A DNA stretch of 64,000 nucleotides, from assembly GCA_018268355.1 (NCBI GenBank), contig JAFDWR010000002.1, positions 186,001 to 250,000 on the forward strand. The letters are read 5' to 3'. Shown here in pieces: positions 28,876-36,530 of the stretch (its first letter is position 1; the number at the start of each line of letters is the position of its first letter). Under the pieces are notes generated by a model that was given only the letters and a program-made list of their open reading frames with translations, had not been told where the DNA came from and did not search any database. This DNA comes from Armatimonadota bacterium (GTDB lineage Bacteria > Armatimonadota > Fimbriimonadia > Fimbriimonadales > Fimbriimonadaceae). The translations under genes and the position numbers were made by a program.

Positions 28876-29436
28876 TTAGACTTGCATGAGCTCGGCTTCT
28901 TTCTTCTTGCCGAGATCGTCTGCCTGGTGGACAAAGGTGTCGGTGAGCTTCTGGATCTTTGCTTCGTAGCCCTTCACTTCGTCTTCCGTCACTTCCTTCT
29001 TCTTTTCCAGACCCTTGATGTGGTCGATGGCGTCGCGACGGACGTTTCGGATGGCGATGCGCGCGGTTTCGGTTCGGGCATGAACCTGCTTGGCCATGTC
29101 CTTTCGTCGGTCTTCGGTCATCTGCGGGAAATTCAAGCGGATGCCGGTGCCGTCGTTGACGGGGTTGATGCCGAGGTCGCTCTTCATGATCGCGCGTTCG
29201 ATGACCGGGTACATGCTCTTGTCATAAGGAACAATCAGCAGCTGTCGCGGTTCCGGGACGCTGACGTTGGCGACCTGGTTGACCGGCGTTTCGGTGCCGT
29301 AATAGTCCACGTGAACGCGGTCGAGCACGTTGGGAGTGGCTCGGCCGGTTCGATAACTGGCGAAGTCATGATTCATGGCGTCAATCGCCGCCTTCATTCG
29401 ATGTTCTGCATCCTGCAGGATTTCCTGAGCGTTCAT
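28876..29436 (-). CDS. frr: Ribosome recycling factor
   Basis: 186 residues, the normal RRF length. Recognisable segments include MKAAIDAMNHDFASYRTGRATPNVLDRVHVDYYGT, PEPRQLLIVPYDKSMYPVIERAIMKSDLGINPVNDG and the C-terminal helix with RRDAIDHIKGLEKKKEVTEDEVKGYEAKIQKLTD. RRF splits post-termination ribosomes with EF-G. The start overlaps the pyrH stop (ATGA). Confidence 0.95.
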   Translation of the reverse strand: MNAQEILQDAEHRMKAAIDAMNHDFASYRTGRATPNVLDRVHVDYYGTETPVNQVANVSVPEPRQLLIVPYDKSMYPVIERAIMKSDLGINPVNDGTGIRLNFPQMTEDRRKDMAKQVHARTETARIAIRNVRRDAIDHIKGLEKKKEVTEDEVKGYEAKIQKLTDTFVHQADDLGKKKEAELMQV

Positions 29437-30176
29437 TCGGGGTTTCCTCCAACAAGGGTGCCCGTCTCGCCGCCGGTTAGGGCGTCGAGCAGTGCACCGG
29501 GTTTATGAAAGTCGAGGACGATCAGCGGAAGCTGATGGTCTTGGGCCATGGTGAACGAAGTCTGATCCATGACCTTGAGTCGATTTTGGATAGCGGTGTC
29601 GTAGGTCAGCGTGCTGTAGCGCTTGGCTGACGGGTTCTTTTTGGGGTCGCTGTCATAGACGCCGTCAACCTTGGTGGCCTTCACGAGGACGTCGGCTTCG
29701 ATCTCGAGCGCGCGAAGGACCGCCGCAGTGTCGGTGCTGAAGAACGGATTGCCCGTTCCGGCGGCGAAGACGACCATGCGACCCTTTTGCATGTGGCGGA
29801 TGGCTCGTCGTCGGATGAAGGGCTCGGCGACAGCGGAGACGCCAATCGCGCTTTGGACGCGGACCTCAATGCCTTGCTTCTCGATCGCCGATTGGAGACC
29901 GAGCGAGTTCATGAGCGTGCCGAGCATGCCCATTTGGTCGGCGACCGAGCGGTCGATGCCGCCTTCCGCGCTGAAGGTCTCGCCACGGATGAAGTTTCCG
30001 CCGCCCACGACGATGGCGGCTTCGATGCCCGCCTTGTGGACCGCCGCGACCTCCGAAGCGATGTAGTTCAGAACGTTGGGGTCGAGGCCAAAGCGAAGAT
30101 CACCGGCAAGCGCCTCGCCACTCAACTTGATCAAGGCCCGTTTGAATGATTTTCTCGCTGATTCCTGTTTTCCCAT
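29433..30176 (-). CDS. pyrH: Uridylate kinase
   Basis: 247 residues from the ATG at 30176. The amino-acid-kinase fold is recognised by ALIKLSGEALAG, the IVVGGGNFIRGE loop, and FAAGTGNPFFSTDTAAVLRALE with the following KVDGVYDSDPKK. It phosphorylates UMP to UDP in pyrimidine synthesis. An alternative start 20 codons upstream gives an unlike, basic-poor N-terminus and runs into the divergent promoter region. A TACACT element sits about 15 bases before the chosen ATG. Confidence 0.93.
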   Translation of the reverse strand: MGKQESARKSFKRALIKLSGEALAGDLRFGLDPNVLNYIASEVAAVHKAGIEAAIVVGGGNFIRGETFSAEGGIDRSVADQMGMLGTLMNSLGLQSAIEKQGIEVRVQSAIGVSAVAEPFIRRRAIRHMQKGRMVVFAAGTGNPFFSTDTAAVLRALEIEADVLVKATKVDGVYDSDPKKNPSAKRYSTLTYDTAIQNRLKVMDQTSFTMAQDHQLPLIVLDFHKPGALLDALTGGETGTLVGGNPE

Positions 30177-30216
30177 GCAAACCCGACCGTTAGTGTACCG
30201 TTCGCACTCAGCGACG

Positions 30217-30222
30217 TATGAT
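30217..30222 (+). promoter_or_regulatory. -10 element (TATGAT) 5 bases before the start codon
   Basis: TATGAT is followed by ACGGT and the ATG at 30228, in the 51-base region between the divergent pyrH and PafA/Dop-like genes. No Shine-Dalgarno is visible, so the transcript is probably leaderless. Confidence 0.4.
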
Positions 30223-30227
30223 ACGGT

Positions 30228-31712
30228 ATGCCCCATTCTCCCGGTGAACGCATCTTTGGTCTTGAGACCGAGTTTGGGTGCTGGGTCGATCCGTCCGTTG
30301 GGCGTCCTGAGGCTGCGGTCGAGTTAGTAAAGGACTGCCTCTTTTACGACATGAAGATCGGGGCGCTGGACCTCCATGCCCGCGATGACGTCTTTGAGCC
30401 CGCCGAAGCGGGTGGGTTCTTGCTGAACGGGGGTCGAATGTACATCGACGCGGTGGGCTCGCACCTGGAATATGCGACCGCCGAATGTCGCGACCTTCGG
30501 GATGTCGTCGCGAACGACCGCGCTGGTCATCGCCTCATCGTCCGTGCGCTCAACGAGCTCGGGCTCAGCGACCAGGTGTCGTTCTACAACAACTCAGTCG
30601 ACCACGTCGGCGGGCACACCTTCGGCTGTCACGAGAACTACCTCGTTAAGGACTATGAGGGCTTCCTCACCGACAAGATTGCCCTTCTCTTTCCATTCCT
30701 CGTCACCCGCCAAATTTATGCGGGCGTGGGGCGCGTTGGCGGGCACATCCTCGATTCCGAAGGGCTGCGGCCAACCTACGAAGACCTTGTCAACAACCCG
30801 GTGGACTACATTTGGGTGAGCCACGTTTACGGCGTTCGCCCCGATCCGAGCGTGGATTTTCAGCTCAGCCAACGCGCCGACCACATCATCAAGACCATCG
30901 CGAGCCGGGTGCGCTTCAATCGCGCCTTGATCAACCCGAAGTGGGAGCACTACTACTCGCACGACGGCTACACGAGGCTCCACATGCTCTTTGGCGAGGG
31001 CAACCCGAACGAGTACGCCTATGCGCTGAAGGTCGGCACCACCCACCTCATGCTGCGCCTACTGGAAGACGAAATCGTGGACACGAAGTGGCTGATGAAG
31101 AACCCGCTTCTGGAGCTTCGAAAGGTCTCCCGCGATGCCAGTTACCGCTGGCTGGTCGAGCTCGCCGATGGCACCACCCTGAGCGCGATTGACCTCCACC
31201 GCGAGTACCTGCGGCTCGCCGAACGCTACCGCGGGACCGACGAGCAGACCGATTGGATTCTCGACGAGTGGACGTCCATCCTCGATGGCTTGGAGAAGGA
31301 CCCGATGGCGCTCGGCGACCGGGTGGACTGGGTCGCAAAGAAGACGATTCTCACCCAGTACCTCGAAGAGGCGGGCACCGATTGGACCGATGATGCGCTC
31401 CACTCGGTTGACATGGAATACCACAACATCGACCCCGAGAAGTCACTCTTCCACGGCCTTCAGGAGATGGGTGAGACCCGCCGGATGCTCAAGGAGATCG
31501 ACATCGTCAAGGCGATGACCGACCCGCCCGCCAACACCCGCGCGAAGGGGCGATCCAAGCTCGTCGAAAAGGTGCTCCAGCGCAAGCGGCCAGGGGTTTA
31601 CATGTTTGACTGGAACGGCGTCGCCGTTGACCGCCACCGGTACGTTGAGATGCCCGACCCGTTTGAGACCTACGAGGACCTGCCCGACCAGTGGCAGATC
31701 CCCGTGACCTAG
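30228..31712 (+). CDS. Orphan PafA/Dop-family protein (Pup ligase-like)
   Basis: 494 residues. The glutamine-synthetase-like core starts with GLETEFG (Glu13/Glu15, metal ligands). A catalytic-type Asp74 sits in GGRMYIDAVGSH, followed by LEYATAEC. Then come NNSVDHVGGHTFGCHENYLV, PFLVTRQIYAGVGRVGGH and a C-terminal DMEYHNIDPEKSLFHGL block. These are the conserved PafA/Dop segments. The absence of the long Dop-specific loop and the closeness of several blocks to PafA favour a ligase, but this is not proven. PafA attaches Pup, or the related UBact in some Gram-negative phyla, to lysines. No pup/ubact, proteasome or Mpa gene is in the window. Confidence 0.75.
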   Translation: MPHSPGERIFGLETEFGCWVDPSVGRPEAAVELVKDCLFYDMKIGALDLHARDDVFEPAEAGGFLLNGGRMYIDAVGSHLEYATAECRDLRDVVANDRAGHRLIVRALNELGLSDQVSFYNNSVDHVGGHTFGCHENYLVKDYEGFLTDKIALLFPFLVTRQIYAGVGRVGGHILDSEGLRPTYEDLVNNPVDYIWVSHVYGVRPDPSVDFQLSQRADHIIKTIASRVRFNRALINPKWEHYYSHDGYTRLHMLFGEGNPNEYAYALKVGTTHLMLRLLEDEIVDTKWLMKNPLLELRKVSRDASYRWLVELADGTTLSAIDLHREYLRLAERYRGTDEQTDWILDEWTSILDGLEKDPMALGDRVDWVAKKTILTQYLEEAGTDWTDDALHSVDMEYHNIDPEKSLFHGLQEMGETRRMLKEIDIVKAMTDPPANTRAKGRSKLVEKVLQRKRPGVYMFDWNGVAVDRHRYVEMPDPFETYEDLPDQWQIPVT

Positions 31713-31714
31713 TC

Positions 31715-33970
31715 TTAGATGCCCTTCGGGGCCTGGTCGACCAGGTAGATCCGAACGCGGTCGATCTTGCCGTTCACGCCGTCGCTGCGCGGCAGGAGCT
31801 GGATCGAGCGTGCCGATTGCGCTGATCCGAGGTCGAGGATGAGAACGTGGGGGTGCTTCGGCTCCCCGCTGCTCCATTCCGTGTGCCAGAAGGTGGTCGG
31901 CTGGTTGTCGATTGCGTTCGTGGCCTTGCCGTCCTCGCCGTCGGTCTCTTCGCTGTCCACGTAGGCAACCTTCCAGTTCGTCTTCTTGAGGGCGGCTCCG
32001 CTCGCGTCATAAAGGTCCACCTCGGCGAGCGTGGTCCAGGGTCCACCGCGCGCCTCGGACATCGCTTCGATGACGAGGTAGCGACCCTTCGTGCCTTCGG
32101 GCAGCGCGACCTTGGTGCCGGTGACGCTCAGTTTGACGTCGAGCGCGGGCTTGAGGCCGCTCAGGTCGGCTACCTTGTTGTTCTTTCGCGCGGGCGTCGG
32201 CGGGGTCTCGATCTGGTCAAGGATCGGCTTGGTGAGGCCTTGAATCGTGGGGCTCGCGGTGCCTTCGTCGTCCATGACGACGACCTCATTCTTGCCCTTC
32301 TTGAGCCAGCTCCGCGGCACGAAGAGCGTCTGTTGGGGGCCGATCTTCCAGAAGCGACCGAGGTTGCGACCGTTCAGCCAGACAAAGCCCTTGTTCCAAG
32401 CGCGCATGTCGAAGAACGTGTCGCCGGTCGAGGCGAGGGTGAACGAACCACGATAGACGATCGGGCCGCTGCCCTTGCCGCCGGTGGGCGCGACGTCGAG
32501 CGGATAGCCCTCGACTTCCCAGCTCTTCAGCTCGGTCTCGCCGAGCAGGACGGGACCCTTGAGGCCCTTTCGCTCGTGGGGGATCATCTCGCCGAAGTTG
32601 ATCCGCGAGAGGGTCTCGACGTCAATTTCCAAGCGGTCGCCCTTGCCGACGGTGATTTCGACCGACTTTTGGTTTCGGCGGCGATCCATGATGCCAGCGA
32701 GCTTGCCGTTCACGAGCACGCGGGCGTAATCGAAGACGCCGCCGGTGGTGAGGGTGAGCTTGCCGCCGACGGGCGAAGTGGTTCGATACCGGACGATGCC
32801 GTGGGCTTGGTCAAGGTCCTCGAAGGTGGGAAGGTCCTTCACCTTGCGCGCGGTTTTGCCCGAGAGCGCGGTGCCTTCCGCCTTCAGCGAGAAGGTCGGC
32901 ACCTCAACCGGGTCGGGCATGGCCGGGATCGGCGGGAGGGGGGCCTTTGAATACTTTTGGAGCAGCTCGCGGAAGGCCATGAACTTCGGCGTCACGCGGC
33001 CCGATTCGTCGAGCGCGCTGTCGTAGTCATAGCTCGTGGTGTCGACGTTGAAGTCGTTGCGACCGCCGTTCGCGCCTTGCATCCAGCCGAAGTTGGTTCC
33101 GCCGTGGAACATGTAGATGCTGAAGCTCGCGCCGTTCTTGAGGCACCATTCGAGGTCTGCGACGTTTGCTGAGATGCTGCTGGTATGGTGTCGCTTGCCC
33201 CAGTGGTCGAACCAGCCCGCCCAGAACTCGCCGATCATTTTCGGGGTGCCTTTGCGGAACTTCTCGAGTTCCGGGAACGCCTTGGGAGCGCCACCGCCAA
33301 AGTTGATCACCGGGGTGACGTCGGGGAGGGTGCCGCCTTCGAGGTAGCCGACGCCGGGTCCGTCACTCGTGAACATCGTGCCCTTGAATCCGGCTTGGCG
33401 AAGAGCGTCGCGAACACCGCCGAGGTAGACCTTGTCCTTGCCGTAGCTGCCGTACTCGTTTTCGACCTGGGTCATGATGATCGGCCCGCCGTTTTCGATG
33501 AGGAGCGGAACGACCTCTTCGCCGAGGCGCTTGAAGTAAGCCTGGGTCGCCTTCATGAATTCGGGCGCCTTGCTTCGGATCTGGAAGCTGCGATCCTTGA
33601 GCAGCCAGCTCGGCAGTCCACCGAGGTCCCATTCGGTGCAGACATAAGGTCCGGGGCGAAGGAGGACGTAGAGCCCTTCCTCTTGGGCGGTGCGGACGAA
33701 CTTTGCGACGTTCAGGTTGCCGGAGAAGTCCCACTCGCCCGGTCGCCGCTCGTGGGCGTTCCAAAAGACGTAGGTGCAGATCGTGTTGAGACCCATCGCG
33801 CGGGCCATCTTCATTCGGACGCGCCACTCGGCCTCGGGCACGCGCGGGTAGTGCATTTCGCCCGAATGGATTTGGAAGGGCTTTCCATTGAGGATGAACT
33901 GATCCCCTTGGACGGAGAAGGATTGCGGAGCAGATTGCATGACGGCAAGAGCAGAGAGTTGGGCAAACAT
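31715..33970 (-). CDS. GH35 beta-galactosidase with C-terminal carbohydrate-binding-like domains
   Basis: 751 residues. The signal-like N-terminus (MFAQLSALAVMQSA) is short. The GH35 barrel is unmistakable: HSGEMHYPRVP, TYVFWNAHERRPGEWDFSG, LRPGPYVCTEWDLGGLPSWLL, acid/base Glu172 in VENEYGSYG and nucleophile Glu248 in MIGEFWAGW. Two beta-sandwich modules follow (jelly-roll GH35 C-terminal domains), with a discoidin/galactose-binding-like tail (ARSIQLLPRSDG...). It probably cleaves beta-1,3/1,4-galactosides outside the cytoplasm. It lies 9 bases after the FkbM methyltransferase gene. Confidence 0.9.
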   Translation of the reverse strand: MFAQLSALAVMQSAPQSFSVQGDQFILNGKPFQIHSGEMHYPRVPEAEWRVRMKMARAMGLNTICTYVFWNAHERRPGEWDFSGNLNVAKFVRTAQEEGLYVLLRPGPYVCTEWDLGGLPSWLLKDRSFQIRSKAPEFMKATQAYFKRLGEEVVPLLIENGGPIIMTQVENEYGSYGKDKVYLGGVRDALRQAGFKGTMFTSDGPGVGYLEGGTLPDVTPVINFGGGAPKAFPELEKFRKGTPKMIGEFWAGWFDHWGKRHHTSSISANVADLEWCLKNGASFSIYMFHGGTNFGWMQGANGGRNDFNVDTTSYDYDSALDESGRVTPKFMAFRELLQKYSKAPLPPIPAMPDPVEVPTFSLKAEGTALSGKTARKVKDLPTFEDLDQAHGIVRYRTTSPVGGKLTLTTGGVFDYARVLVNGKLAGIMDRRRNQKSVEITVGKGDRLEIDVETLSRINFGEMIPHERKGLKGPVLLGETELKSWEVEGYPLDVAPTGGKGSGPIVYRGSFTLASTGDTFFDMRAWNKGFVWLNGRNLGRFWKIGPQQTLFVPRSWLKKGKNEVVVMDDEGTASPTIQGLTKPILDQIETPPTPARKNNKVADLSGLKPALDVKLSVTGTKVALPEGTKGRYLVIEAMSEARGGPWTTLAEVDLYDASGAALKKTNWKVAYVDSEETDGEDGKATNAIDNQPTTFWHTEWSSGEPKHPHVLILDLGSAQSARSIQLLPRSDGVNGKIDRVRIYLVDQAPKGI

Positions 33971-34769: not shown

Positions 34770-36530
34770 TCAGCCCGCGAGCTTGTCGAGTAGCTTGAGA
34801 GCGTTCTCCGCCCGGTCGTACCGCAATTCTGCTTCGGTTACGACGCTCTCAAGCGCATTGATTTCCTCGTTGCAGAGTGCTTCCGCGTGGGCGATTCGAG
34901 CGCGCAGCACCCGGTTGGCTTCCATCGCGACCTTGCCAACGGTGACATCGAGATCGGCCCTCATGCGGCCCGACTTGAACTGCCAACTCACGGCAAAGAG
35001 AACCGGGACGGACGCGACGCCAATGACAGCCAGTCCCAACGGCGACGTAAGGCCAGCTTGGATGCCCTTGTAGGTGAGATAAGCCGCAAACCCAAGATAG
35101 GCGATAAACCCGCCGCAACCCATGCTGAACGACTTGAGCGCCCTGGACTGGAGGTGGTCGATGCCCTCATAGTCCGGGGTCATCGACTCGCGATAGGCCT
35201 CGAGGGTGCGGTTTCGCTCGCGCTCGGCGGCGCGGACATAGGCATCGCGCTTCTTCCGCGCGAGTTCGAGTTGGGACCTCGCGGTGGAAATCTCGGATTC
35301 GCACCGTTCGCGGTAGTCCACGGTGCCGCGCTGGGCGCGCTTGATGACGTCGCGGATTGCGCTTTCGGACCGGGCGGAAATGTACACCGCGGTCAACCAA
35401 TCGGCATCGGGAAGCGCGTGCTGGAGCGTGGTGCGGTACTCACGGAGCGAGGTGGGCAGGTCGATCTCAACCTGGCACTCTTCTTCGACGCCGCGGACCT
35501 TGTCGAGGGCCGCACCCCAGGTCGTAATGAGGTTTAGGCTGTCGGTTCGGATCGCGGCCTGGGTCGCCATGAGCACGCTCAGGATTGAGCGCGTGATCGA
35601 CATCAGGTGGGGATCGGAAAGCGCGAAGTGGCCGAGAATCGGGTCCTGGGCGCAGGCTCGTTCAACCTGGTCGATTGCCTGGTCGGGGCGCTGGGCGCGC
35701 AGGTGGTGGTGGGCAACGAGCAGCCGCACTTCGGGGGCGACTCCGGGCGTGCTGGCGATCGCATCGAGCACCGCGCCCGCTTCCTTCTTGTCGCCCGACG
35801 TGCGCAAGAACTCGCTGTACATCGCGGCGAGGACATGGGTGATCGCATCGACCACGCCCGACCGCTTTTCCCACGCCATGCGCAGGCTTTGGCCGACGTC
35901 GGCCGCGCCGAAGCCGAGTCGCCAGCAAACGGCGGCGTAAGCAAGCCAGGGAATCTCGGGTCGAAGTCCGGCGTCGGCGAGGGCGACCTCTTGGAGTCGG
36001 CCACGGACGTCGCGGAGGGCTTCGCTGGCGTCAATGCCAGTGGCGGTCAGGGCCGAGCGCAGGAGTCGTTCGGCCTTGATCCAACGTGGGCCATGGGTCT
36101 CGCCCATTCCGGACGCCATCTTGGTGACCACGCGCCGAACCTCGTTTCGGTCGGAGGTTACGCGCGTGATCACGCGCGAGAGCGCGTGGGCGGAGGCTTC
36201 TTCGACGACGGTATCGAAGCCCTTGAGGCTCTGGCCCTCAAAGATGCACTGGACGATCTTCGCGACCGCTTCGACGCCCACGAGCATCTTGATTCGCTCT
36301 TCGTTGGAGTCCAGCCCGCGAACGTCGATCCGCGAGAACAGCTTGGAGTCGTTGACCAGGGTGCGGAGTCCCGGAAGGGCACCTTGGAGTTCGGTGGCAT
36401 AACTCACCATGAGGTCCCGCTCGGAATGTTCTCCGAACAGGAATTCGAAACGACGTAGCGGATGCAGGGCTGCTCTCCCGAATCCCTGATCGGCACCGTC
36501 GTCATGCCAGAACTGCGCAGCGGCACCCAC
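34770..36530 (-). CDS. Large helical membrane protein of unknown function
   Basis: 586 residues with a GTG start (AAGG just upstream). The first ~390 residues are helical and soluble-like. A coiled coil follows (ESEISTARSQLELARKKRDAYVRAAERERNRTLEAYRESM). Two TM helices at about 465-485 and 495-515 (FSMGCGGFIAYLGFAAYLTYKGI; LGLAVIGVASVPVLFAVSW) lead to a second, shorter C-terminal coiled coil. Both long helical regions probably face the cytoplasm. I recognise no domain. It lies 16 bases upstream of the FkbM gene, same strand, so it is the likely first gene of that unit. Confidence 0.6.
   Translation of the reverse strand: MGAAAQFWHDDGADQGFGRAALHPLRRFEFLFGEHSERDLMVSYATELQGALPGLRTLVNDSKLFSRIDVRGLDSNEERIKMLVGVEAVAKIVQCIFEGQSLKGFDTVVEEASAHALSRVITRVTSDRNEVRRVVTKMASGMGETHGPRWIKAERLLRSALTATGIDASEALRDVRGRLQEVALADAGLRPEIPWLAYAAVCWRLGFGAADVGQSLRMAWEKRSGVVDAITHVLAAMYSEFLRTSGDKKEAGAVLDAIASTPGVAPEVRLLVAHHHLRAQRPDQAIDQVERACAQDPILGHFALSDPHLMSITRSILSVLMATQAAIRTDSLNLITTWGAALDKVRGVEEECQVEIDLPTSLREYRTTLQHALPDADWLTAVYISARSESAIRDVIKRAQRGTVDYRERCESEISTARSQLELARKKRDAYVRAAERERNRTLEAYRESMTPDYEGIDHLQSRALKSFSMGCGGFIAYLGFAAYLTYKGIQAGLTSPLGLAVIGVASVPVLFAVSWQFKSGRMRADLDVTVGKVAMEANRVLRARIAHAEALCNEEINALESVVTEAELRYDRAENALKLLDKLAG

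Follow-up and report, generated by a model that had tools for sequence, protein, structure and literature searches.

The closest described counterpart of the genes analysed here is the UBact-proteasome system of Gram-negative bacteria (PF20513, NF033388), the main paper on which is by Lehmann and colleagues. It combines a modifier ending in RQRSG[QE] with two PF03136 enzymes, an ARC/Mpa-type ATPase, and the proteasome subunits PrcA and PrcB, and the genome under study holds the same parts. In contrast to the operon of that system, its genes lie at four loci, with only dop, ubact, and prcB together. Two further points of comparison are actinobacterial PafA (4b0t, 4bjr), for which the modifier is Pup rather than the UBact predicted here, and Dop (4b0r, 5lrt), a Pup deamidase/depupylase. 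Features that distinguish PafA from Dop are tabulated in PMC7947786 (Table 1), where a tree that includes Nitrospirae has a single ancient PafA/Dop split, and the roles of the metal ligands and of the catalytic Asp in Dop are given in PMC8599861.

The 64-kb stretch of DNA that was analysed (hereafter, the window) contains an intact ORF with an ATG start (Table 1) whose product matches the Pfam Pup_ligase profile almost from end to end (PF03136: 407.7 bits, E 8e-122, profile positions 1-440 of 441; cut-off 25). Judging from sequence, this protein is very probably the PafA-type ligase of a complete UBact-proteasome system, the ancestral-looking operon of which has been dispersed in Fimbriimonadaceae. 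The first-pass annotation had recognised a PafA/Dop-family gene with ETEFG and other conserved blocks, and the full-length profile match and the location of ETEFG at residues 13-17 bear this out. The same annotation had described the gene as divergent from pyrH and convergent with a GH35 gene; both neighbours were confirmed by their Pfam matches on the corresponding strands. The GH35 gene is separated from pafA by 2 nt, and the longest pyrH ORF, if used, overlaps the pafA start. Upstream of pafA, pyrH, frr, and uppS point away on the minus strand. A functional tie of pafA to pyrH, frr, uppS, or the GH35 gene was rejected because other pafA loci share none of them (0/76 other Armatimonadota pafA loci compared), and the pyrH-adjacent site is therefore best read as an accident of lineage. 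Close proximity of pheS to pafA was found in two other genomes only.

Table 1 Coordinates of the window features and of the partner genes on other contigs (C3, C4, C6) of the same genome.
Feature	Position	Strand	Evidence
pafA-like gene, predicted UBact-protein ligase, 494 aa	30228..31712	+	PF03136 full length; AF2 model
pyrH (UMP kinase), divergent neighbour, outside the system	29433..30236	-	PF00696
GH35 beta-galactosidase, convergent neighbour, outside the system	31715..33970	-	PF01301, 375.6 bits
ETEFG codons, residues 13-17; metal ligands E13 and E15 correspond to Glu8/Glu10 in Acidothermus Dop	30264..30278	+	alignment, residue mapping; ligand roles from PMC8599861
Residues N67-E86 (NGGRMYIDAVGSHLEYATAE): catalytic Asp74, ligands Tyr72 and Glu81, PafA-type VGS/ATAE signature	30426..30485	+	spacing; signature positions from PMC7947786 Table 1
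Residues N236-S244, NPKWEHYYS replacing NTRDEPHAD; Lys238 at the place of Dop Arg227	30933..30959	+	residue mapping
dop, second PF03136 gene, directly upstream of ubact	C3:267749-269197		Dop model 322 bits vs. PafA model 217
PrcA-like alpha subunit, alone on contig 4	C4:254265-254930		TIGR03691 best match, 60 bits, below equivalog cut-off
ARC/Mpa-type ATPase, 557 aa	C6:41098-42768		TIGR03689 best match, 449 bits, below cut-off 505

Family searches of the window returned no UBact-, proteasome-, or ARC-family match above any cut-off, in agreement with the earlier observation that no modifier, Mpa ATPase, or proteasome gene lies within 30 kb of pafA. The UBact tail motif is absent from all window ORFs, including the only two short ones (≤130 aa) that end in GE or GQ. 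A single 20-bit UBact match was rejected, as it carries a stop codon and falls below the cut-off. Elsewhere in the window, a minus-strand ORF (34770-36530, 586 aa) went unmatched in Pfam at E 0.001; towards its C-terminal third it has a hydrophobic segment, rich in glycine, that could cross a membrane.

Searching the whole genome (2.70 Mb, 7 contigs, 97.7% complete) by family revealed exactly two PF03136 genes, the window pafA and dop on contig 3. The contig-3 protein contains the Dop-loop, HGHPEYSTPE, and NTRDEPHAD. Directly after dop and before prcB lies a 59-aa ORF (MEPDRLNRPISRPGERKLGDESGPSGPEVNKPKSDNELMRRLKKVDPDRAKNYRQRSGQ) that ends in RQRSGQ and scores 68 bits with Pfam UBact (PF20513) and 65.7 bits with the NCBIfam UBact equivalog (NF033388; cut-off 35); on this sequence evidence, it is a bona fide UBact. 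The contig-3 PrcB has TIGR03690 as its best match (121 bits, below the equivalog cut-off), and PF00227 and PF16450 were above their cut-offs for the proteasome/ARC genes. The set thus occupies four loci: the window pafA, dop-ubact-prcB on contig 3, prcA on contig 4, and ARC on contig 6. The modifier, proteasome subunits, and Mpa/ARC ATPase that the first-pass annotation had proposed to look for were all found, at three loci outside the window. Its description of the gene as an orphan is contradicted by these partners, and its suggestion of a remote component of a UBact-like system agrees with them. The other suggestion, a ligase with a different partner, does not fit a genome with only two PF03136 genes, one of them directly upstream of ubact.

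To place this layout in its family and phylum, gene order was compared among related genomes. The window PafA is up to 73% identical to named relatives, which belong to Armatimonadota and for the most part carry the label Fimbriimonadaceae or Armatimonadetes. Outside the family, the order ARC-dop-ubact-prcB-prcA-pafA is found at six loci (L077, L078, L146, L159, L162, and L163), where pafA is 53-57% identical to the window gene. Within the family, the PafA and Dop genes are apart in 20/20 sampled genomes (different contigs or >250 kb), and ubact and prcB directly follow dop at all 18 dop loci. It is most likely that the six-gene order represents the ancestral-looking operon and that pafA left it in Fimbriimonadaceae. 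The rest of the set is widely kept in the family: ARC is full-length or nearly so in 39 of 41 genomes (G180 has only a C-terminal piece at a contig end), and PrcA is present in 37 of 41. The ARC/Mpa ATPases of Armatimonadota (L164-L193 and the operon loci L077, L078, L146, L159, L162, and L163) lack the GQYL tail of the actinobacterial (Tsukamurella) ARC used for comparison and end in ..NVI, ..NII, or similar residues. Across 151 phylum genomes, Pup_ligase was found in 84 and UBact above cut-off in 77, all 77 within the 84; no genome without PF03136 had UBact above cut-off.

Several variants of the layout were also recorded. In the family, dop-ubact-prcB is immediately preceded in every case (18 dop loci) by a putative lipoprotein gene (~440 aa; e.g., L003:8417-9745); it is fast-evolving (25-35% identity between species), and the copy in the window genome has no Pfam match. 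Neither ARC nor PrcA was found in the family genome G169 (1.5 Mb, 97% complete), where the system may have been lost secondarily. In one Fimbriimonadales genome (L121:7983-12205), pafA and dop are ~1.4 kb apart with no UBact/PrcB detected between or behind them, which is perhaps an intermediate arrangement. Tandem pairs of UBact-like stretches, the second partial or weaker, occur in two genomes (G013:C4:768105-768378; G079:C30:12142-12415).

A separate cluster, found in other Armatimonadota and distinct from the window genome, combines two divergent Pup_ligase-family genes with an ARC-like AAA ATPase (L254:850-10313, L255:6568-12792, L257:3363-9601, and L256:6452-11124). In L254, the ATPase has a proteasomal OB domain, and the cluster also encodes a ThiF/E1-like protein, a very weakly E2-like protein, and a protein with weak similarity to Prok-JAB, comparable proteins being present in L255 and L257; no proteasome gene was seen near it. 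Small ORFs with Pup/UBact-like tails lie between the Pup_ligase genes in L254 (2898-3185, 95 aa, ending ..SKQRGGQ) and L255 (8174-8368, 64 aa, ending ..STRQQGGE), and no clear modifier ORF was found in the L257 and L256 clusters. Close relatives of the first Pup_ligase gene of this cluster were found in 5 of 291 phylum genomes. The cluster looks like a Pup-like modifier combined with E1/E2/JAB parts, and a literature search returned no description of one, which is weak evidence.

The catalytic residues of the window protein are conserved. E13, E15, Y72, D74, E81, H135, and H252 align with Acidothermus Dop Glu8, Glu10, Tyr92, Asp94, Glu99, His155, and His241, and R232 is likewise conserved. A check for these residues had been proposed with the first-pass annotation; the metal ligands and the catalytic Asp are in place, and one Arg is replaced by Lys238. 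This phosphate-contacting Arg (Arg227 in Dop) is shared by the known enzymes and is outside the Pfam definition of the family. Its surroundings have also changed: NTRDEPHA, which is shared by actinobacterial PafA and nearly all Dops compared, reads NPKWEHYY in the window protein, and NPKW is present in 98/100 Armatimonadota PafA ORFs.

Based on these alignments, signatures that separate ligases from Dops were compared. The Dop-loop (40-65 residues) is absent upstream of N67-E86, and ETEFG is 54 aa from NGxR in the window protein versus 79-83 aa in four Dops. PafA-type residues surround the catalytic Asp (D74-A-VGSHLEYATAE; motif D-x-VGSHxEYATAE), and His219, where the alpha-loop begins, and Asp461 are of the same type. 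Among the 22 diagnostic positions of PMC7947786 (Table 1), 9 are PafA-type, 2 Dop-type, 9 neither, and 2 uninformative; positions at the catalytic Asp belong to the first of these classes, and those in the alpha-loop mostly to the third. We therefore predict a ligase rather than a depupylase from these signatures and from the partner clearly being Dop. The protein remained below the NCBIfam equivalog cut-offs of both pupylate_PafA (292.1 bits; cut-off 551.3) and Dop (273.5 bits; cut-off 492). Because the homologue from the L077 operon is also under the PafA cut-off (320 bits), that model seems to be restricted to actinobacterial-type PafA.

The AF2 model of the window protein (pLDDT 89.5) is most similar to the crystal structures of Dop (Z 51.9) and PafA (Z 43.8), and the next group, YbdK-like ligases, follows at Z 23. 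With actinobacterial PafA, the protein shares the fold, catalytic Asp, metal ligands, lack of a Dop-loop, and VGSHxEYATAE; it differs in being only 33% identical, in having NPKWEHYYS for NTRDEPHAD, in a ~30-residue insertion around 172-205, and in an alpha-loop that is mostly non-helical in the model, whereas it is a helix in actinobacterial PafA. The fold and active site are also those of Dop, to which the structural score is slightly higher, but the window protein differs from Dop in the missing Dop-loop and the PafA-type residues near the catalytic Asp, and a separate Dop is encoded in the same genome. In trees whose references were PDB chain alignments and a Nonomuraea replicon (few sequences with long branches, without Nitrospirota or Verrucomicrobiota), the Armatimonadota PafA, including the window protein, formed one clade (support 100/100). 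The best trees kept this clade apart from actinobacterial PafA (the grouping had 11% and 0% bootstrap support), and forcing the two PafA groups together was not rejected (AU p 0.45 and 0.29). In the smaller tree, it joined Armatimonadota Dop with weak support (81/90). The tree that had been proposed as a check thus places the protein firmly among Armatimonadota PafA, and sisterhood to actinobacterial PafA was neither recovered nor rejected.

Several of these results count against the ligase assignment, namely the failed NCBIfam cut-offs, the Dop-closer structure score, the non-helical alpha-loop, the tree placement, the replaced NTRDEPHA motif, and the ARC without a GQYL tail. Some of them would suit a second UBact hydrolase/deamidase or a bifunctional enzyme, with the contig-3 'Dop' acting as the ligase or sharing the role: fold and sequence scores are nearer to Dop structures, the alpha-loop is mostly non-helical, and trees do not group the protein with actinobacterial PafA. 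We regard this as improbable given the missing Dop-loop with its shortened spacing, the PafA-type VGS and ATAE residues at the catalytic Asp, and a contig-3 protein that has the Dop-loop and both Dop motifs and scores higher with the Dop than with the PafA model (Table 1). Even less credible is an orphan PafA/Dop-family ligase that pairs with some modifier or partner distinct from UBact and the proteasome. The empty 30 kb on either side and the pafA neighbours that vary from genome to genome are what such a gene would have, but UBact, Dop, PrcA, PrcB, and ARC are all in the genome, orthologues end the UBact-proteasome operon in other families, UBact co-occurs with PF03136 across the phylum, and a genome minus the window gene would have no ligase for its own UBact.

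A different proposal concerns ancestry, and it overlaps the preferred explanation, as the window protein would still be a UBact ligase. The Armatimonadota ligase may be a lineage apart from actinobacterial PafA that lost the Dop-loop independently from a Dop-like ancestor and carries Lys238 for Arg. The two PafA groups that remain unjoined in the best trees, the weak link to Armatimonadota Dop in the smaller tree, and the near-universal NPKW for NTRD are in line with this. We nevertheless consider it rather unlikely, because a single PafA clade was not rejected, VGSHxEYATAE is common to both PafA groups, and the published tree with Nitrospirae has one ancient split. If it were true, PafA-type ligation would have arisen twice from Dop-like ancestors, with a remodelled phosphate site (NPKWEHYY).

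For the PafA-type ligase of a dispersed UBact-proteasome system, homology suggests the following sequence of steps. At the UBact C-terminus (..RQRSGQ), Dop (contig 3) would deamidate the last residue, Gln, giving Glu. The window protein would then bind ATP and Mg, phosphorylate the side-chain carboxylate of this Glu, and transfer the acyl group to a target-protein lysine. The ARC/Mpa-type ATPase (contig 6) would recognise the tagged protein, unfold it, and pass it into the 20S core formed by PrcA (contig 4) and PrcB (contig 3), and UBact removal would also be carried out by Dop.

These results remove a false orphan and reveal UBact-proteasome genes that are spread over four loci in one bacterial family, so that neighbourhood searches alone would miss ligases of this kind. 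They also provide ~100 sequences of predicted UBact ligases in which the active site is consistently altered, a change open to testing by mutagenesis.
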